From contig JACQBU010000025.1 of assembly GCA_016194375.1 (NCBI GenBank), forward strand, positions 1 to 33,581: 33,581 bases of DNA. Direction: 5' to 3'. A program made the position numbers and the translations under genes. Source of the stretch: Nitrospinota bacterium (GTDB taxonomy: Bacteria; Nitrospinota_A; UBA7883; JACRGQ01). The notes beneath the pieces were generated by a model. The model saw only the letters and a list, made by a program, of their open reading frames with translations. It ran no database searches and was not told where the DNA came from. This document shows positions 2,188 through 30,576 of this stretch, in pieces (within the stretch, counting starts at the first letter, position 1; every line of letters starts with the position of its first letter).

Positions 2188-3731
2188 CACTCCCTCCTCA
2201 AACCGTCGGGCGCGCGGACGCCGGCCGCCACCGCCGTCCCCCCCGACCTGGCCTTTGCGACCTGCCCGACCAAGTTGCGCACGGACGGCTCCATTTTCTT
2301 CAACACCGGGTTCGGATAGACTCCGATCAGGAAGACCAGGATGACGAACGGAGCCATGTAGGCAAGCTCGCGCGCGCTGAGGTCGGGCAGGTCCTTGTTC
2401 TTCTCGTTGGTGATCTCCCCCAACATCACGCGCTTGAAAGTCCAGAGCATGTACGCCGCCCCGAGCAGGACGCCGACGACGGCGAGCGACGCGTACACGG
2501 CGTTTGCCTCGTAAACCCCGACCAAAATCATGACCTCCCCGATGAACCCGTTGGTGAGCGGAACCCCTATCGAGGAGAGCGCGATCAACATGAATATGAA
2601 GGCGAACTTCGGCATCACCTTCCATACGCCGCCGTACTCCGCTATCAGGCGGGTGTGCCGCCTTTCGTACAGGATTCCGACGATGAGGAAGAGCGCGCCG
2701 GTGGACACCCCGTGGTTTATCATCTGCATGATCCCGCCGGAGACGCCGCGCAGGGTGAACGCGAAGGTTCCGAGCACGACGAACCCGAGGTGGCTCACGG
2801 AGGAATAGGCCACCAGCTTCTTTATGTCCTCCTGCGCCAGCGCCACGAGCGCGCCGTAGATTATCCCTATGATGGCGACCCAGCTCACCCACCAGGCGGC
2901 GGCGAGGGAGGCGTGGGGGAATATCGGCAGGGAAAACCGGAGGAACCCGTAGGTCCCCATCTTTAGCAGGATTCCCGCCAGTATGACCGAGCCGGTGGTC
3001 GGAGCCTCGACGTGGGCGTCGGGAAGCCACGTGTGGAACGGAAAGACCGGCACCTTTATCGCGAACGCGACGAAGAAGCACAGGAACATCCAAAACTGGA
3101 GGTTCTTGTCAAACGCGAACGCGTGGTATTTGAGCACGTCGAAGGTGTACACGCCGGTCGCGGAGTGGTACTGGAAGTAAAGGACGAGTATCGCGAAAAG
3201 CATCAGCACCGAGCCGGCCATCGTGTATACGAAGAACTTGACGGTGGCGTAAATCCTGTTCTTGCCCCCCCATACGCCGATGAGGAGGTACATCGGAATC
3301 AGCATCAGCTCCCAGAAGACGTAGAAGAGCACGAAGTCTAGCGCGCAGAACACCCCCACCATCGCCGTCTGCAGGACGAGCATGGATATGTTGAACTCCT
3401 TCACGTTCCTCTCCACCGCCGTCCACGTGGCGAGGTAGCAGACGACGCAGGTGACGGTGGTCAGCATGACCATGAAGAGCGAAATGCCGTCCACCCCCAT
3501 GTAGTACTCGGCGCCGAACGACTTTATCCACGGCGCCCTCTCGACGAACTGCATGGCGTGGGTCGAGTCGTCGAACCCGTAATAAAGGGCGAGCGAGAAG
3601 GCGAAGTCGACCAGGCCGGTCGCCAGCGTGATCATCCTGATGAGGTTTTCGTTTTTCGAGCCGACGAAAAGCAGGACGAGCGCCCCGGCCAGCGGGACGA
3701 AGGTTATGACCGAAAGAAGCGGGAACATCAT
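2187..3731 (-). CDS. nuoM: NADH-quinone oxidoreductase subunit M
   Basis: 514 residues, a normal length for NuoM, the middle antiporter-like proton pump of the complex I membrane arm. It shows TM5 Glu141 (FWELMLIP), TM7 Lys226 (AFAIKVPVFPFHTWLPDAH), TM8 Lys257 (GILLKMGTYG) and the NuoM-specific TM12 glutamate in LTNGFIGE, so by its TM12 residue this is a true NuoM and not an L-type subunit. Two adjacent ATG codons stand at the start (3731 and 3728). The first overlaps the stop of the upstream L-like gene as ATGA, and a G-run lies just upstream. It is translationally coupled to nuoN by a one-base overlap. Confidence 0.97.
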   Translation of the reverse strand: MMFPLLSVITFVPLAGALVLLFVGSKNENLIRMITLATGLVDFAFSLALYYGFDDSTHAMQFVERAPWIKSFGAEYYMGVDGISLFMVMLTTVTCVVCYLATWTAVERNVKEFNISMLVLQTAMVGVFCALDFVLFYVFWELMLIPMYLLIGVWGGKNRIYATVKFFVYTMAGSVLMLFAILVLYFQYHSATGVYTFDVLKYHAFAFDKNLQFWMFLCFFVAFAIKVPVFPFHTWLPDAHVEAPTTGSVILAGILLKMGTYGFLRFSLPIFPHASLAAAWWVSWVAIIGIIYGALVALAQEDIKKLVAYSSVSHLGFVVLGTFAFTLRGVSGGIMQMINHGVSTGALFLIVGILYERRHTRLIAEYGGVWKVMPKFAFIFMLIALSSIGVPLTNGFIGEVMILVGVYEANAVYASLAVVGVLLGAAYMLWTFKRVMLGEITNEKNKDLPDLSARELAYMAPFVILVFLIGVYPNPVLKKMEPSVRNLVGQVAKARSGGTAVAAGVRAPDGLRRE

Positions 3732-12281: not shown

Positions 12282-14824
12282 TTCCCCTCCATTCCGGCGC
12301 TGTTGGCGCAATCGGCCTCTCCGCCCGTTCCGACCACCCTCACGCGCGCGTATTTGTCCAGTTCCTCCGGAACGCGCATCGAGCCGACCCTCACGCCCGG
12401 GTTGATGCACACCCTGGCCTTCCATTCCTTTTTGGGATGTTTGAACAAAAGCGTGGAGTCGCCGGAGCATCCGCACCGCGCGGCGTCCTCCGGGTTCAAG
12501 TCCACGTACGGCATGCCGCCGACGTGGAAATCGGCGTAATGCTTGCCGCGCAACGCCCCGAGCGAGGGGCAGTAGTCCGTGTACACCCCGAGGCTGAAGA
12601 GCGAGTGGTCCGGCAATATCGCCATGATTTTGGAGCCCTTCAAGTCCTTCATCTCCGCCGGCGTCTCCAGTTTCAACTCCTGAGTCTGGACGGACTTAAG
12701 CGCGTAACCCGCGTACGAGGCGTCCTTTTCAACGTCCTTGTACATCGGGACCTTCGCGGCTATCTCCGCCGAAACGTCCGAGACCGAGTTGTAGCCGAAG
12801 TCGCCCCCCATCCTCTTCGCCAAATCCGCCATTATCCGCCATACGGGCCTTGACTGGCCCACCGGCTCCACCGCCTTGCGAACCCTTTGCACGCGCCCCT
12901 CCATATTGGTGAAGGAGCCGTCCATTTCCGCGGCGGTGCAGGTCGGGAGCACGACGTTGGCCGACATCGCCGTCTGGGTGTAGAACTGGTCGAACACCGC
13001 CACGAACTCCGCCTTGTCCAGCGCGGCGCGCGCCTCGAAATAATCGGGATGCCGCCGCAACGGATCCTCGTCCGCTATGATGACCGCCTTGGCCGATCCG
13101 AACAGTTCGTTTTCCTCCTTGAGCTCCGACCTCGCGTCCGCCGCGTACCCCGGGAGAACGCCGGCCGCCACGCCCATGTCGTTCGCGCCCTGAGAGTTGC
13201 AATATTCGCGAAGAAGAAGCACTCGTCCCCCCGTAATTTTCGCCAAGTTTACCACATTGCGCACAATCGCCTTAGACTGCGGGTGGTTTTGCGCCTCGAG
13301 GCCGACGAAGAAGACCGGATCGCCCCTCCTCCTCAGCAGTTGGACGACCTCGGAAACCTCCGCCTTGAGGCCGTCGTCCAAGTCGGAACCGGCGGCGGAC
13401 CTCACTTTCCGGCCGAACTCGTCCGACACGGGCGCGCCGCCCGCAAACGAGCCGTCCTTCTTGACGCCGTCTATCAGGCGGTCCAGAAGCGCCAGGAGCG
13501 TCTTGTTTAGCCGGTCGTAGTCGTAGACGATTTTTATCTTGGGCGAGGGAAGGAAGGTCGCCACCTTGCTGTATAAAAGCGCGACCTCCGCCCCCCGCTC
13601 GAAAATCGCCTCCCTTACGACGTTGCTCAGCACCGGGTTCTCGTTGCTCCCGTCGGCGCCCACGAACACGAACGCGCCCCCGCGCCTGACGTCCCCGAAA
13701 GTGCAGTTCATGGGGAAGTCACCGAACTCCTTAAAGACGGCGGACGCCGTCTCCGGCCCGTGCAGGTTTGCGAGGTTCTCCAGGTTGCCGCTTCCAAGCG
13801 CCTCGCGGAAGAATTTCTGGAACGCGTAGTCGTCCTCGTTCGTGTCCCTTTCGGAACCCAGGCCGGCCACGGCGTTTTTGGAGCCGGCGTATTTTTTCAG
13901 GTTGTGCGCGATGAAGTCCAGCGCCGTGTCCCAGTCCGTGGCCTCGAACCCGGAGCCGCGCTTTATCAGCGGCGAGGTCATCCTTTGGGGGCTTTGGACG
14001 AACTCGTACCCGAACCTGCCGCGGGCGCAAAGGTTCCCCTTGTTGTTCCCCACGGAATCGCGCGAGGTGACGCGTATCACCGCGCCCTTCTTGACGTTGT
14101 AGTAAAGCGTGCAACCCACGCCGCAGTGCGCGCAGACGGTCTGGGTCCTTTCCACCTCCCACGAGCGTGCCGAGAAATACATTCCGCTCGAAAGCGCGCC
14201 GACGGGGCAGACCGATATGCACTGCCCGCAGAAGTCGCAGTCCAGCTTTTCGCCGGTGACGGTGTTTATCCGGGCGGCGTTTCCGACCCCGTCCACCTTG
14301 TACGCGGCGCACCCCTGCACCTCGCGGCACACGTAGACGCACCTTTCGCACATGATGCAGAGGTTCCGGTCGTACTGTATCAACCCCCAGTCCACCACCG
14401 GAACCTTCTTGTGTTCGGCCGTCTGCCAGTGCGGCTTTTGTATCCCGAACTGCATGGTCAGGTTCTGCAGGGAGCATTCGCCCGACCTTTCGCACACGGG
14501 GCAGTCGGTCGGGTGGTTGACGAGTATGAATTCGACCATGTTCTTGCGAAACTCGACTATCTTCGGGGTGTCGGTATAGACCACCATGCCGTCGGCCACC
14601 GGCGTGTTGCAGGACATGACCGGCGAGGCGACCCCCTCCACCTCGACCGAGCAGACGCGGCAGGAGCCTATCGAGTGCGTCTTCGGCAGGTAGCAAAGGG
14701 TCGGCACGTTCACGCCGTTTTTTCTGGCGGCCTGCAGTATGGTCGTTCCGGGCGGAACCTCCGTGGCGCGGCCGTTTATGGTGACCGTCAGCACGGCCTT
14801 TGTCTCCGCCGTCGCGTGGCTCAT
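12278..14824 (-). CDS. nuoG: NADH-quinone oxidoreductase subunit G
   Basis: 848 residues, the large iron-sulfur subunit of the peripheral arm. In order it has the [2Fe-2S] N1b site (Cys44, 55, 58, 72), the His-Cys N5 site (His104, Cys108, 111, 117), two ferredoxin-type motifs (Cys156-159-162-166 and Cys196-199-202-206), an N7-type CxxCxxxC plus Cys27-later site (Cys231, 234, 238, 266), and a long molybdopterin-oxidoreductase-like domain that carries no cofactor in NuoG. The ATG at 14824 overlaps the upstream stop as ATGA. Its partner upstream is the NuoF-GltD fusion, so electrons probably enter NuoG from that flavoprotein through the NuoF-like [4Fe-4S] site. Confidence 0.95.
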   Translation of the reverse strand: MSHATAETKAVLTVTINGRATEVPPGTTILQAARKNGVNVPTLCYLPKTHSIGSCRVCSVEVEGVASPVMSCNTPVADGMVVYTDTPKIVEFRKNMVEFILVNHPTDCPVCERSGECSLQNLTMQFGIQKPHWQTAEHKKVPVVDWGLIQYDRNLCIMCERCVYVCREVQGCAAYKVDGVGNAARINTVTGEKLDCDFCGQCISVCPVGALSSGMYFSARSWEVERTQTVCAHCGVGCTLYYNVKKGAVIRVTSRDSVGNNKGNLCARGRFGYEFVQSPQRMTSPLIKRGSGFEATDWDTALDFIAHNLKKYAGSKNAVAGLGSERDTNEDDYAFQKFFREALGSGNLENLANLHGPETASAVFKEFGDFPMNCTFGDVRRGGAFVFVGADGSNENPVLSNVVREAIFERGAEVALLYSKVATFLPSPKIKIVYDYDRLNKTLLALLDRLIDGVKKDGSFAGGAPVSDEFGRKVRSAAGSDLDDGLKAEVSEVVQLLRRRGDPVFFVGLEAQNHPQSKAIVRNVVNLAKITGGRVLLLREYCNSQGANDMGVAAGVLPGYAADARSELKEENELFGSAKAVIIADEDPLRRHPDYFEARAALDKAEFVAVFDQFYTQTAMSANVVLPTCTAAEMDGSFTNMEGRVQRVRKAVEPVGQSRPVWRIMADLAKRMGGDFGYNSVSDVSAEIAAKVPMYKDVEKDASYAGYALKSVQTQELKLETPAEMKDLKGSKIMAILPDHSLFSLGVYTDYCPSLGALRGKHYADFHVGGMPYVDLNPEDAARCGCSGDSTLLFKHPKKEWKARVCINPGVRVGSMRVPEELDKYARVRVVGTGGEADCANSAGMEGK

Positions 14825-16827
14825 GCGCCGCCCCCGTCCGCCGGCACGCAGGCCATGCCCACGATGTAACAGCGCATGCACCGGGAGGACTCCTCGACGA
14901 CTTCCTCCAGGGAATACCCGAGCTCCACTTCCTTGAACGAGCCGATCTTGTCCTTCCGGTCGCAGATGGGCATCTCCTTGCGGGGCCACCCCTTGGCCTG
15001 CGGAACAACCTCGTCCCTGTCGTACGCGCCGATTCCGGCTATCATCTTTTCCATTATCTGCGCGTCGGCCGGGGCGACCCGCTCGCCGCGCAGGAACTGT
15101 CCCATGCCTTGGGCGGCCCGCCTTGCGTGGCCGACCGCCGTCACGAGGTTGAGCGGGCCGGACACGACGTCGCCGCCCGCGAAGACGTCCGGCACGGCGG
15201 TCTGGAAGGTCTCCTCGTCGGCGACGATGGTCCTCCACTTGGTCGTTTGTATCGCCGCCTCTTCCTTGAGGTAGTTGATGTCGCAGTCCTGCCCGATGGC
15301 GGAAATGACCATGTCCGCCGTCATCACGTGTTCGGAGCCCTTCACGGCCACCGGCTTGCGCCTGCCGCTTTCGTCCGGCGGCCCGAGCTCCATCTTCTGG
15401 CACTCGAGCCCCGCCAGTTTTCCGTTCTCCCTCACGAGCTTCGTCGGCGCAAGGAGGAAGTTGTACTTGACCCCCTCGTCCTCGGACTCGCGCACCTCGT
15501 GGGGGTCGGCGGGCATCTCCTTTTTCGTGCGGCGATAGACTATGTTCACGTCATCACACCCAAGCCGTATGTAGGAACGCACGCAGTCCATCGCCGTGTT
15601 GCCCGCGCCGACGACAAGCACCTTCTTTGGGACGGGCACCGGATGGGGCCTTACGTCCGGATTTTGTATAAAGTCCTTGGTTACGTTGTAGGTTATGTCC
15701 TTTAAAATCTGTATTCCGCCGTAGACGCCGGGAATGTTGTCCTTCTCCCCCTCCACCCCCATGTCCTTGGAAATGTCCCCGCCGGTCGCCAGGAAAAAGG
15801 CCTTGTACCCCTTCTGCCTGAGCGAGCCGAAGGTCTCGGCCTTTCCGAACTCGACGTTGAACTTGATCTCGACCCCCATGTCCCTTATGAACTCGACCTC
15901 CCGGAGCATGACCTCCTTCGGGATTCGGTATTGCGGTATGCCGGTCCAAGCCGCGCCGCCAACCGTGGGGAGCTTTTCGAAAACCGTGGGCCGAAAGCCC
16001 TGTAGCGCAAGGTAGTAGGCGCAGGAAAGTCCGGAAGGCCCGGCGCCGATGACGGCGACCTTCTCCGGCCTCGAGTGCTTGTTGGGGTTGGACGGTTTCT
16101 CCACCTCGTGCTGGTCCTCGTAATCCCACGCGAACCGCTTTATCTTGCATATGGAGATGGATTTGTCCACGTTGTCCCTCCGGCAGTTGTTTTCGCACGG
16201 GTGGAAACAGGCCCTGCCGAGCGTGCTCGCCATCGGACTCGCGTTTCGAATCGTCTTAAGCGAACCGGCGAAATCACCCTCCTTCACCTTCTCTATATAG
16301 AGGGGGATGTCCATGCCCGTCGGACACGCGGAGGTGCAGGGCGCGGTCATCTTGTACGGATAGTAAAAACCGGAGGGCTTCCTTTTTCCGCTTATGTAAT
16401 CCTCGTAATCCCCCCTGAAATATTGGAGCGACTGGACGAGCGGCTCCGGCCCCAGCTGGCCTATGCCGCATTTTGAGTTTTTCGATATGGAGTCGTAAAG
16501 TGACTCGAGCTGTTTGAGGTCGTCGGCGCCGCCGCGCCCGCCGAGTATCTTAGCGAAAACGTCCTCCCCGACCTTCGTCCCGACCCGACAGGGGAAACAT
16601 TTGGCGCAGGAGCTTTTTTGCAACGCCCCGGCGTATTTGTAGGCCATCTCGACGACGTCATAAGGCTCGTCCAAGATTACAATGCCGCCCCAACCCATGA
16701 ACGCCGTGATTTTTCTTTTGGAATCAAATGCTTGCGGAAGCTTTGCCGGAACGTCAGCCCACGCCTCCGGGGGTTTTCCCCTGTTGTCGACGAGCTTGTC
16801 CTTCCAAGTGCTGAACAGGGCCTTCAA
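14821..16827 (-). CDS. NuoF iron-sulfur stub fused to GltD-type FAD/NAD(P)H oxidoreductase
   Basis: 668 residues. Residues 1-140 match only the C-terminal end of NuoF, with the N3-type [4Fe-4S] ligands Cys74-77-80 and Cys120 (SSCAKCFPCRVG, SKCGIGQ). The FMN and NADH-binding part of NuoF is absent and no NuoE is encoded nearby. Residues 160-590 match GltD, the small subunit of glutamate synthase: cysteines 164/168 and 207/211/215, FAD motif GAGPSGL (261-267), second nucleotide motif GAGNTA (407-412) with YRRTKKEMPA, and GGDVVSG near 551. A CMRC pair (650-653) lies near the end. The likely role is feeding electrons from NAD(P)H into NuoG. Related NuoF-GltD proteins such as SfrB of Geobacter are known, so the fusion itself is not new. 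TTG 16827 has an AGAGGGG site 7 bases ahead. Confidence 0.9.
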   Translation of the reverse strand: MKALFSTWKDKLVDNRGKPPEAWADVPAKLPQAFDSKRKITAFMGWGGIVILDEPYDVVEMAYKYAGALQKSSCAKCFPCRVGTKVGEDVFAKILGGRGGADDLKQLESLYDSISKNSKCGIGQLGPEPLVQSLQYFRGDYEDYISGKRKPSGFYYPYKMTAPCTSACPTGMDIPLYIEKVKEGDFAGSLKTIRNASPMASTLGRACFHPCENNCRRDNVDKSISICKIKRFAWDYEDQHEVEKPSNPNKHSRPEKVAVIGAGPSGLSCAYYLALQGFRPTVFEKLPTVGGAAWTGIPQYRIPKEVMLREVEFIRDMGVEIKFNVEFGKAETFGSLRQKGYKAFFLATGGDISKDMGVEGEKDNIPGVYGGIQILKDITYNVTKDFIQNPDVRPHPVPVPKKVLVVGAGNTAMDCVRSYIRLGCDDVNIVYRRTKKEMPADPHEVRESEDEGVKYNFLLAPTKLVRENGKLAGLECQKMELGPPDESGRRKPVAVKGSEHVMTADMVISAIGQDCDINYLKEEAAIQTTKWRTIVADEETFQTAVPDVFAGGDVVSGPLNLVTAVGHARRAAQGMGQFLRGERVAPADAQIMEKMIAGIGAYDRDEVVPQAKGWPRKEMPICDRKDKIGSFKEVELGYSLEEVVEESSRCMRCYIVGMACVPADGGGA

Positions 16828-22502: not shown

Positions 22503-23366
22503 ATGACGCACCGCGGCGCGACAAACAATCTCGCCGGCAAACGTAAACCCGAATGGCTGAGGAAAAAGGTGGTCTTTCGCGCGTCCGACCCCGTCAAGAA
22601 CGAGCTCAGGAAAAAGCGGCTCAACACGGTCTGCGAATCTGCCAGATGCCCCAACATGGGGGAGTGCTTTTCCCGCAACACCGCCACGTTCATGATATTG
22701 GGGGACGTCTGCACCCGCAACTGCCCCTTCTGCGCCGTTAAAACGGGAAAGCCCGCGCTCCCCGACCCGGCGGAGCCAGAAAAAGTGGCGGAAATGGCCC
22801 GGAGCATGGGGCTGGCCCACGTGGTGATAACCTCGGTCACCCGGGACGACCTTCCCGACGGTGGCGCGGGGCAGTTCGCCGCCACGGTGAGGGCCGTTAG
22901 GGAAAAGAACCCCGGCGGCAGGATAGAACTGCTCGTCCCGGACTTCGACGGCGACAATCGGCTGTTGGACGTCGTGCTTGGGGAAAAGCCGGACGTGCTA
23001 AACCACAACGTCGAGACCGTCCCCTCGCTTTACCCTCGCGTGAGGCCGCGGGGGGACTTCAAAAGGTCCCTTGGCGTGTTAAATTATGCGGCGGTATGCG
23101 GCTTCGCCGTCAAATCTGGTATCATGGTTGGCCTTGGCGAAACCGAGGAGGAACTGTTGCCTACGATGAGGCAGATCAGGGCCGCCGGCGCCGGGGCGCT
23201 GACGGTGGGGCAGTACCTGGCGCCGTCGCGCAACCACGCGCCGGTTTTTAAACACCACACGGAGGAGTTTTTTGAGATGATTTCCAGGGCCGCTTATGAA
23301 ATCGGCTTCGAGAAGGTGGCCGCCGGGCCTTTCGTGCGAAGCTCGTACATGGCGGACAGGCTGTGA
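22503..23366 (+). CDS. lipA: Lipoyl synthase
   Basis: 287 residues. LipA inserts two sulfur atoms into the octanoyl group on lipoyl-carrier domains, using radical SAM chemistry. Both clusters are visible: the auxiliary [4Fe-4S] motif Cys44-Cys49-Cys55 ([12 protein letters not shown]) and the radical SAM motif Cys70-74-77 (CTRNCPFC). The C-terminal RSSY motif (279-282), whose serine completes the auxiliary cluster, is present. The chosen ATG has only a weak ribosome site; an in-frame TTG at 22479 is possible. The gene overlaps alaC by 4 bases (GTGA). No lipB is in the window, so the octanoyl donor must come from elsewhere. Confidence 0.97.
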
Positions 23367-26442: not shown

Positions 26443-26654
26443 CTTCTATATACCTAGTAACTAAATTATTTTAAGTTGATAAATTATACCATTGGTTACC
26501 GCTACGAGAAACAATTTTTTGTTGTATGTAAGTTTTAATTAGTATGAACCGGCTAGGAAGCGCAAACCGCAGGTTAATGCCCGTGCTACCGGGCATGCCA
26601 GTACGCCACAATCTCCTTTCAAGCGCGAGCCGCGCCGTGCGTGGTAGAATTTAA
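26443..26654. other. AT-rich gap beside the truncated epimerase
   Basis: About 210 bases without a gene. From 26430 to 26545 the DNA is strikingly AT-rich compared with the rest of the window. A 7-base hairpin, ATGCCCG (26577-26583) and CGGGCAT (26590-26596), lies nearer the epimerase remnant. No mobile-element gene or target duplication was found by eye. Confidence 0.5.
26450..26488 (-). promoter_or_regulatory. Putative promoter and operator of the HxlR-family gene
   Basis: On the minus strand a TATAAT box lies at 26483-26488. A TTAGTTACTAGGTATA segment at about 26448-26463 sits between it and the gene and resembles TTAC/TACTA-type operators described for HxlR-family proteins, so autoregulation is plausible. 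No convincing -35 box was found. Confidence 0.35.
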
Positions 26655-27350
26655 AACCTTGCGGGCGCTCCGATCATCACGCGCTGGACGAAGAGCCACA
26701 AAAAAGTGATGTACGACAGCAGGATAAACACGACCTCCCGATTGGTGCGCGCGTTTGAGATGATGCCGTCGAAACCACCCCTTTTCATCTCCACCTCCGC
26801 GGTCGGTTTTTACGCCGAGGGGGTTAAACAGACCGAGGATAACTTTAAGCGTGCCGACGATTTCCTGGGAACGCTTGCATATGATTGGGAACAGGCGGCG
26901 TTGAAGGCCGTCCCGCTCGGGGTAAGGACCGTGGTTTTCCGGTTTGGCATCGTCCTGGGCAAAGGCGGCGGCATGCTGGGCAAGATTCTTTTGCCGTTCA
27001 AGCTCGGATTGGGCGGCGTGATAGGGGACGGCTCCCAATCCTTCTCCTGGGTGCAAATCAAGGACTTGGAGCGGGCTTATATGGCCGCCATCGCCGACGA
27101 TTCGTTCAACGGAGTCTACAACCTCACCTCGCCCAACCCGACTACGAACAGGGGCCTGACCAAGGCTCTGGGCAAGGCGCTCAATAGGCCCACCGTATTG
27201 CCGCTTCCCAAATTCGCGCTGAGGCTTCTTTTCGGCGAGGGGGCGACGGCGGTCATAGGCGGTCAGGAGGTCTACCCAAAGAGGCTCGTCGAAGCCGGTT
27301 TCAAATTCGTCTATCCCGACATTGACGCGGCGGTAAAGGCGTCCGTCTAG
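26655..27350 (+). pseudogene. TIGR01777/YfcH-type epimerase, 5'-truncated
   Basis: The frame begins right after a TAA (26652-26654) and reads NLAGAPIITRWTKSHKKVMYDSRINTT, the conserved middle of the TIGR01777 family of SDR-type epimerase-like proteins. It continues intact through FISTSAVGFYA, SWVQIKDLERA and the C-terminal DUF1731-like PKRLVEAGFKFVYPD. The first 55-60 residues, which hold the GxxGxxG NAD(P)-binding motif, are missing. The DNA upstream has no frame that could encode them. In-frame GTG 26706 and ATG 26709 could still start translation, but the product would lack the cofactor site. I call it a pseudogene left by a deletion or insertion at about 26652. Confidence 0.75.
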
Positions 27351-27567: not shown

Positions 27568-27581
27568 AAAAAGGAGCATGA

Positions 27582-29747
27582 ATGTCGGATTCTTACATAC
27601 GGAGGCTGTTCGCGGAGAGGCTCGGGGGGGCGAATTTCGGCAAGGGGGGGGAGTACAAGTTTGAAAAGATAAAACGCGCGAAGAGGGCGGCCGTCGCCGC
27701 CAACCCGGGCGTCGAGATGATAGACATGGGGGTCGGCGAGCCGGATTGGATGGCGGACAAAATCGTGGTGGACGAGCTTGCGGCGCAGGCCGCCAGGCCG
27801 GAAAACCGGGGCTACACCGACAACGGCATAGCCGAGTTCAAGGAGGCCGCCGCAAGATACATGGAAAAGGTGTACGGCGTGAGGGGGCTTGATCCCGCGA
27901 CGCAGGTGAACCACGCCATCGGCTCGAAGCCGGCGCTCGCCATGTTGCCCGCGGTTTTCATCAACCGGGGGGACGTTACTTTGATGACCGTCCCCGGATA
28001 TCCGGTGATGGGAACGCACACCGCGTACTACGGCGGGGAGGTTTACAACATGCCGCTCAACCGTTCGGCCGGCTTCCTGCCGGAGCTGGACTTGGTGCCG
28101 GAGGAGAAGCTCGCAAGGGCGAAAATGTTGTACATCAACTACCCGAACAACCCGACCGGCGCCACCGCGACCGCCAAGTTTTTCGACAAGGTCGTGGCGT
28201 TCGCAAAAAAACACAAACTTATCGTAGTGCAGGACGCCGCGTACGGCGCCCTCGTTTACGGGCAAAAACCGCTCTCCTTCCTCTCCGTGGACGGAGGCGC
28301 GGAGGTGGGCGTCGAAATGCACTCGCTGTCAAAGGCGTTCAACATGACCGGCTGGCGGCTCGCGTTCGTGGCGGGCAACAGGCTCGTCGTGTCCGGGTTC
28401 GCCCACGTGAAGGACAACTGCGATTCCGGCCAGTTCGCGGCCATACAACGGGCGGGGATCGCCGCGCTAAACGACGTCTCCATCACCGAACGCACCGTGG
28501 CGAAATACGAGAGGCGCCTCAAGGCGATGGTCGCGGCGCTAAGGTCGGTCGGGTTCGACGCGCTGGTTCCGGGCGGCACGTTTTACCTGTTCGTGCCGGC
28601 GCCAAAGGGGATAAAGGGGGGGCCGGAAAGGGCGTTCATTTCCGCGGGCTCCAACGTCGGTGACAGGCGCGCGTCGCTCAAGGCGGCGGTCTCCGAGGTC
28701 GGCCGCGTCGAGGGGACGACCGTTGAGAACGTCTCCTCCCTTTATCTTTCCAAGCCGGTCGGAATCGGCCCGACAAGGTGGTTCCTAAACTGCGTATTCG
28801 AGGTCGAGACCGGCTTGGGCCCGCTCGAACTGCTGGGCCGTCTCGAGCAGATAGAGGTGTTTCTCGGGCGCGAGGCAAAGGGGCTTAACGCCCCCAGGAC
28901 GATTGATTTGGACCTTGTTCTATACGGCGACGCGGCCTCGGACGAACCGCGGCTGACGATACCACACCCGAGAATGGCGGTCAGAAGGTTCGTGCTGGAG
29001 CCGTTGCTGGAAATCGCCCCGAGCGCCGCTCATCCGGTTTTTGGAAAAATCGCCGACCTTTTGCCGTCGGTCGCGGGGCAGGAGGTGGTCCGCGCGGAGC
29101 CGTTCAATCCGCCGGTTTCACGCCGACGGATCGCCGTGGAGGGGCCGATAGGAGCCGGCAAGACGTCGCTCGCCGAAAAACTCGCGGATTATTACGGCGC
29201 GAGGCCGGTTCACGAGATGTCCGTGGACAACCCGTTTTTGGGCCCGTTTTACGAGGAGCCGCGCAAGTTTGCTTTCGCCGTCCAGCTCTTTTTTCTCCTG
29301 TCGAGGCTCGGCATGTCGCTGGAGGCGGAAAAGGCGGGCGTTCCGACCGTCTCCGACTTCCACCCCGACAAGGACCTGTTGTTCTCGCGCCTGAACTTGG
29401 AGGGGGACGAATTAAGGCGGTATAATGACGCGCGCGGCCTGCTCGGCCAAATGCCCGCGGCGCCGGACTTGACGATTTTTCTTTCGGCGGACGACGAGGC
29501 GCTTTTCCAAAGGACTAAAAAACGCGGCAGGGCCTGCGAGACCGGCATAACGAAGAAATACGCGGCGGAGGTCGGTTCGGCATACCGCGACTGGTGCTCT
29601 AAATATGACGGGGGGCCCGCCCTGATGGTGAACGCCAAGGACGTGGATTTTGCCAACGACGAAGCGGCGTTTGGAAAACTTTTGTGGAGAATTTCCCGTC
29701 CGATACGCGGACGCGAGGCCTTCGACCCTTCCGACCCGGATTATTAA
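27582..29747 (+). CDS. Fusion: truncated LL-diaminopimelate aminotransferase / HPPK / deoxynucleoside kinase
   Basis: One uninterrupted frame of 721 residues with an AAGGAG site 6 bases before the ATG. Residues 1-346 match DapL (LL-diaminopimelate aminotransferase, lysine and peptidoglycan pathway), with YINYPNNPTGA and PLP Lys251 (HSLSKAFNMTGWR). The match breaks off at GGTFYLFVPAPKG, so the last 65-75 residues with the substrate-binding arginine are missing. Residues 349-505 are a complete HPPK (folK, folate pathway): AFISAGSNVGDR, APRTIDLDLVLYG, IPHPRM. Residues 514-715 are a deoxynucleoside kinase: P-loop GPIGAGKT (521-528) and SDFHPDKDLLF. HPPK next to or fused with dNK is, as I recall, seen elsewhere; DapL in front is not known to me. 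An internal deletion joining dapL and folK, or an assembly error, would explain it. panB follows after one base. Confidence 0.85.
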   Translation: MSDSYIRRLFAERLGGANFGKGGEYKFEKIKRAKRAAVAANPGVEMIDMGVGEPDWMADKIVVDELAAQAARPENRGYTDNGIAEFKEAAARYMEKVYGVRGLDPATQVNHAIGSKPALAMLPAVFINRGDVTLMTVPGYPVMGTHTAYYGGEVYNMPLNRSAGFLPELDLVPEEKLARAKMLYINYPNNPTGATATAKFFDKVVAFAKKHKLIVVQDAAYGALVYGQKPLSFLSVDGGAEVGVEMHSLSKAFNMTGWRLAFVAGNRLVVSGFAHVKDNCDSGQFAAIQRAGIAALNDVSITERTVAKYERRLKAMVAALRSVGFDALVPGGTFYLFVPAPKGIKGGPERAFISAGSNVGDRRASLKAAVSEVGRVEGTTVENVSSLYLSKPVGIGPTRWFLNCVFEVETGLGPLELLGRLEQIEVFLGREAKGLNAPRTIDLDLVLYGDAASDEPRLTIPHPRMAVRRFVLEPLLEIAPSAAHPVFGKIADLLPSVAGQEVVRAEPFNPPVSRRRIAVEGPIGAGKTSLAEKLADYYGARPVHEMSVDNPFLGPFYEEPRKFAFAVQLFFLLSRLGMSLEAEKAGVPTVSDFHPDKDLLFSRLNLEGDELRRYNDARGLLGQMPAAPDLTIFLSADDEALFQRTKKRGRACETGITKKYAAEVGSAYRDWCSKYDGGPALMVNAKDVDFANDEAAFGKLLWRISRPIRGREAFDPSDPDY

Positions 29748-29748
29748 C

Positions 29749-30576
29749 ATGGATGAAATAAACGTCCTTCAATTCGCGGAATACAAGCGCGAGCGGCGCA
29801 AGATAACGGCGATAACGGCTTATGACGCTCCTTTCGCAAAAATCATGGAGGAGGCCGGAATAGACCTCGTCCTGGTGGGTGATTCGGTCGGGATGGCCGT
29901 GCATGGGAGGCCGGACACGCTTTCCGTCACGATGGAGGAGATGATTCTTCACGGCCGCTCCGTGGCCTCGGCCGTCACAAGGCCGTTTGTCGCCGTCGAC
30001 ATGCCGTACATGACGTTTCAGGCCTCCAAGGAGCTTGCGGCGCAAAACGCCGTGCGGCTCGTGAAGGAAACGGGGGCGAAGGCGGTCAAGGTGGAGGGGG
30101 GCGTCAAGGTCGCTTCCGCAATCAGGGCCATCGTGGAGGCGGGCGTGCCGGTCATCGGACACGCCGGGCTTTTGCCGCAGTCGGTTCATGAGATCGGCGG
30201 GTACAAGGCGCAGGGCACGACCGCCCAATCGGCCAGGGTGGTGATGGAGGACGCGCTTGCGGCGGAGGAGGCCGGCGCGTTCATGGTCGTGCTGGAGGCG
30301 ATTCCCGCCGAACTTGGGCGGAGCATAACCGGGGCGTTGGGGATACCCGCCATAGGAATCGGCGCGGGGCCGCACTGCGACGGACAGATACTGGTCATGC
30401 ACGACATGCTCGGCCTTTCGACCGGCCGTCTACCGCGCTTCGTAAAGACTTACGCGAACCTAAGGGAGCAGGCGGTCGCCGCGGCCAGAAAATACGCCGA
30501 CGAGGTCAGATCCGGCGCGTTCCCGACGGACGAGCATTCCTACCACGCCAAGAACGAGGGCGAAGGCCGGAAGTGA
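29749..30576 (+). CDS. panB: 3-methyl-2-oxobutanoate hydroxymethyltransferase
   Basis: 275 residues. PanB makes ketopantoate from ketoisovalerate and methylenetetrahydrofolate, the first committed step toward pantothenate and CoA. The metal and substrate residues are visible in the TIM-barrel motifs: LVGDSVGM (Asp), VDMPYMTF (Asp), AVKVEGG (Lys) and VLEAIP (Glu), followed by GIGAGPHCDGQILVMHDMLG. The ATG lies one base after the upstream fusion stop, so the genes are surely co-transcribed. The link is metabolic too, since HPPK belongs to folate synthesis and PanB uses a folate cofactor. panC, often next, is absent here. Confidence 0.97.
   Translation: MDEINVLQFAEYKRERRKITAITAYDAPFAKIMEEAGIDLVLVGDSVGMAVHGRPDTLSVTMEEMILHGRSVASAVTRPFVAVDMPYMTFQASKELAAQNAVRLVKETGAKAVKVEGGVKVASAIRAIVEAGVPVIGHAGLLPQSVHEIGGYKAQGTTAQSARVVMEDALAAEEAGAFMVVLEAIPAELGRSITGALGIPAIGIGAGPHCDGQILVMHDMLGLSTGRLPRFVKTYANLREQAVAAARKYADEVRSGAFPTDEHSYHAKNEGEGRK

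Follow-up and report, generated by a model that had tools for sequence, protein, structure and literature searches.

A segment of 199 bp is absent from the assembled sequence at the boundary of dapL and folK in a Nitrospinota draft genome, and we infer that it is still present in the cell's DNA, leaning slightly toward an assembly or consensus error as the source of this local loss. The window analyzed here (33,581 nucleotides) is a whole contig of the 1.91-Mb draft genome, which has 135 contigs and 94% completeness. It carries a 721-aa open frame (27582–29747, plus strand) in which the LL-diaminopimelate (LL-DAP) aminotransferase DapL is followed by HPPK (FolK) and a deoxynucleoside kinase (dNK). 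The loss at the dapL/folK boundary appears to be confined to this single draft assembly, and a new DapL–HPPK enzyme, judged at the sequence level, was not supported. The features of the region are collected in Table 1.

Table 1. Features of the dapL–folK region, in window positions.
Feature	Position	Strand	Basis
TIGR01777/ThyD-like gene, 5'-truncated	26644..27350 (region 26443-27350)	+	TIGR01777 profile 82-292 of 292
Shine-Dalgarno-like AAGGAG	27571..27576	+	sequence; 5 bases 5' of dapL ATG
dapL codons 1-348 (LL-diaminopimelate aminotransferase), 3'-truncated	27582..28625	+	PRK06290; 85% identity with G001
junction CCG|GAA AGG, Pro348 running directly into the beginning of HPPK, no stop, spacer or start codon between	28623..28631	+	199 bp absent relative to G001
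HPPK (FolK) domain, complete	28632..29021	+	PF01288 and TIGR01498
deoxynucleoside kinase domain, fused to HPPK	29130..29693	+	PF01712; G001 386-aa open frame
panB, next gene in the conserved dapL-folK-dNK-panB order	29749..30576	+	TIGR00222, 330 bits; synteny

Domain Organization of the 721-aa Frame

The initial annotation held that DapL is joined in frame to HPPK with loss of its C-terminus, and the domain boundaries drawn from Pfam and PRK06290 within the 721-aa frame bear this out. Pfam placed Aminotran_1_2 at residues 45–338. Residues 3–348 aligned to positions 2–348 of the 410 in the PRK06290 (NF004937) profile of LL-DAP aminotransferases with 562 bits, which falls below the curated cut-off of 585 for a full-length DapL and leaves the end of the profile unmatched. 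The intact DapL of G001 (JACQEX010000076, a Nitrospinota MAG of the same genus) scored 672 bits over profile positions 2–410. The core is kept in 110 of the 112 columns that are at least 97% conserved among 79 DapLs, including the core motifs and the PLP-binding lysine region SLSKAFNMTGWR, whereas the final 63 residues typical of the family (ISTVP...LRF..TF...R) are gone.

The HPPK domain occupies residues ~351–480 (352–480 in Pfam) and is complete, covering positions 1–116 of 116 in PF01288 and 1–128 of 128 in TIGR01498 (118.6 bits against a cut-off of 54.1), with the motifs GSN.GD, R.IDLDL, and PHPRM..RRFVL. It is the single HPPK copy within the assembly; unlike other FolK proteins, it lacks its own start codon and is preceded in frame by DapL. 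The dNK domain (residues 517–704) scored 96.4 bits against the PF01712 cut-off of 27 over profile positions 1–198 of 203, and contains the P-loop GPIGAGKT.

The 199-bp Segment Absent from the Junction

The last recognizable DapL codon is that for Pro348 within GIKGGP, and homology to HPPK has begun by residue 350–351. Alignment to G001 demonstrated that GGGCCG of the window (G001 position 2391) runs straight into GAAAGG (G001 2591 on). In G001, dapL encodes 411 aa and ends with TAA at 2578–2580, and folK starts in a different frame with TTG at 2588, ~10 bases on; the loss of 199 bases happens to merge the two frames. DapL was called intact up to 'PAPKG' in the initial annotation; DapL-like codons reach about five residues beyond that point. 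A tail and a DNA segment are indeed missing, but they amount to 63 residues and 199 bp rather than the 65–75 residues and 200–250 bases that had been estimated. Also gone, as had been proposed, are the stop codon of dapL, the start codon of folK, and the spacer between the two, together with the arginine assigned to the substrate carboxylate. This residue, Arg380 in G001 numbering, is invariant (79/79) and belongs to 13 lost tail positions that are at least 97% conserved in the 79 other DapLs. Its expected role, as in fold-type I aminotransferases generally, is to hold the substrate carboxylate, so the truncated DapL should be inactive.

The junction DNA is single copy in the assembly. The G-run described at this point is real but ordinary, as the window holds 10 G/C runs of at least seven bases, two of them close to the start of the same gene; slippage in a G-tract was rejected as a special cause on the same grounds.

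The Same Locus in Relatives

Comparison with about 100 relatives confirmed the deletion of the DapL tail. The nearest relatives in the GTDB genome scan were, with one exception, Nitrospinota/Nitrospinales MAGs. The dapL tail was normal in 79 of the 80 loci from the scan, the 80th ending at a contig edge, and relatives matching the DapL of the window had a normal tail and a separate folK wherever the 3' end of dapL could be read. The same junction was sought among 36 adjacent dapL–folK pairs and none of them was fused, the spacer ranging from 8 to 248 bases with one exception of 1032. A search with the tail alone found a match in every searched relative with this DapL and none on the contigs of the assembly under study. 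Nothing on a DapL–FolK or an HPPK–dNK fusion was found in the open-access literature.

The HPPK–dNK Fusion

The second half of the frame has a different history. HPPK and dNK also share one open frame of 386 aa in G001 (28632–29693 in the window, locus L039 at 2588–3715 in G001), with the same HPPK-then-dNK order and 54% identity; the G001 copy differs in that it starts on its own, after the stop codon of an intact dapL. At the other 10 loci with adjacent folK and dNK no shared open frame was seen. Such a fusion had been suspected in G004 as well and was dismissed when a stricter test showed the genes not to be fused; the same test confirmed the fusion in G001. These comparisons show that the HPPK–dNK fusion is older than the DapL junction and common to the window genome and G001. 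Since this half is the older and shared one, the three domains reflect two events, and the proposal that a deletion created a three-domain protein stands only for the new DapL–HPPK join.

HPPK–dNK (28632–29744) is 54% identical to G001 and the adjoining DapL 85%, a sharp contrast of rates between neighboring genes in this genus. The window's HPPK–dNK is not more diverged from outsiders than that of G001 (54% identity to G005, against 52% between G001 and G005).

Constraint on DapL and the Need for It

Codons 1–348 of dapL compared with G001 gave dN of 0.100 and dS of 1.54, the latter saturating, and the last 87 DapL codons gave dN of 0.083. Relative-rate counts of unique changes were 16 in the window DapL and 22 in G001 with G004 as the outgroup, and 19 and 21, respectively, with G005. 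Relaxed selection on DapL was therefore rejected, as dN/dS and the relative-rate counts are normal up to the junction. Given this constraint and the normal divergence of HPPK–dNK, the loss, if real, would be very recent.

The assembly encodes intact LysA and DapF side by side, and an intact MurE with the DNPR motif, which is typical of meso-DAP-adding ligases. An organism that retains LysA, DapF, and a MurE of the DAP type should require LL-DAP. Neither a second DapL, as sought following the initial annotation, nor Ddh was found in the assembly, and DapD and DapH gave no match over the cut-off there. A weak generic M20 match was rejected as a DAP route since it has no DapD or DapH partner. The nearest DapL paralogue, encoded on the same contig at 23363–24535, is alanine-transaminase-like and scores under every DapL cut-off; related aminotransferases (34–37%) are present in relatives that also keep DapL. 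Hence, DapL looks like the sole source of LL-DAP as far as the gene content tells, absence being no proof at 94% completeness.

Other Observations on the Contig

Besides dapL, the contig carries a second truncated gene, a TIGR01777/ThyD-like oxidoreductase gene located 1 kb upstream. Its first ~82 residues are missing and a stop codon lies just 5' of the homology. G001 carries an intact copy, and no match was found among the other family members searched. The presence of this gene on the same contig adds to the suspicion of an artefact.

In a cluster of complex I genes, an ORF on the minus strand (14824–16827) joins a NuoF-type 4Fe-4S region to a module of Fer4_20 and pyridine-nucleotide oxidoreductase, in a GltD/SfrB-like arrangement.

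Origin of the Junction

An artefact is favored because DapL looks essential and is constrained up to the break, the junction is unique, the genome is a draft, and a second truncated gene lies nearby. Local assembly errors leading to incomplete or incorrect genes are known in uncurated MAGs (PMC7111523). The organism would then possess an intact DapL of ~411 aa with its stop codon, a short spacer, a folK–dNK fusion gene, and panB. Counted against an error are the lack of Ns at the junction and of any repeat of at least 12 bases there that a k-mer assembler would collapse, the failure to find the missing tail on any other contig, and the in-frame join, though the last has a one-in-three chance of arising. 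The clean open frame without Ns or a repeat at the join also speaks for a real and very recent deletion of ~199 bp, either among the cells sampled or in a variant dominating the consensus, that inactivated DapL and left FolK–dNK as a C-terminal extension of a dead aminotransferase. We regard such a deletion as quite possible, if somewhat short of probable. Translation starting at the dapL ribosome site would still yield the complete HPPK, and the truncated TIGR01777 gene could represent true gene decay. G001 has a 6-bp direct repeat, CGAAGT, whose copies lie 203 bp apart at almost exactly the two corresponding positions, which makes a microhomology deletion plausible. The cells may rely on imported lysine or DAP, or on the promiscuous activity of the paralogue on the same contig, or they may be a doomed minority. 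However, no other DAP route was found in the assembly, yet the DAP-using enzymes are intact; constraint on DapL is not relaxed; and the paralogue falls below all DapL cut-offs, with its kin co-occurring with DapL in relatives.

The initial annotation also raised a new fusion whose HPPK takes the place of the small-domain end of DapL. A maintained trifunctional protein of this kind, with DapL activity persisting, is extremely unlikely: the frame is open and its three domains all look well conserved, but 13 near-invariant tail positions including Arg380 are gone, HPPK is ordinary and complete without any compensating sequence, no relaxation or change of selection is seen, and no relative has such a protein. 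Very improbable, too, is a fixed and expressed DapL–HPPK–dNK protein of a groundwater-type Nitrospinota lineage with its DapL activity lost or altered, which, if true, would imply DAP scavenging or an unrecognized DAP route.

Implications

A literal reading of the record would point to a novel enzyme with three functions and to the absence of a lysine/DAP pathway. What the comparison shows instead is an isolated loss where the gene boundary is otherwise conserved, and it urges caution in fusion-based inference from draft metagenome genomes. The result that remains is a modest one, a genus-level HPPK–dNK fusion present in two separate assemblies.
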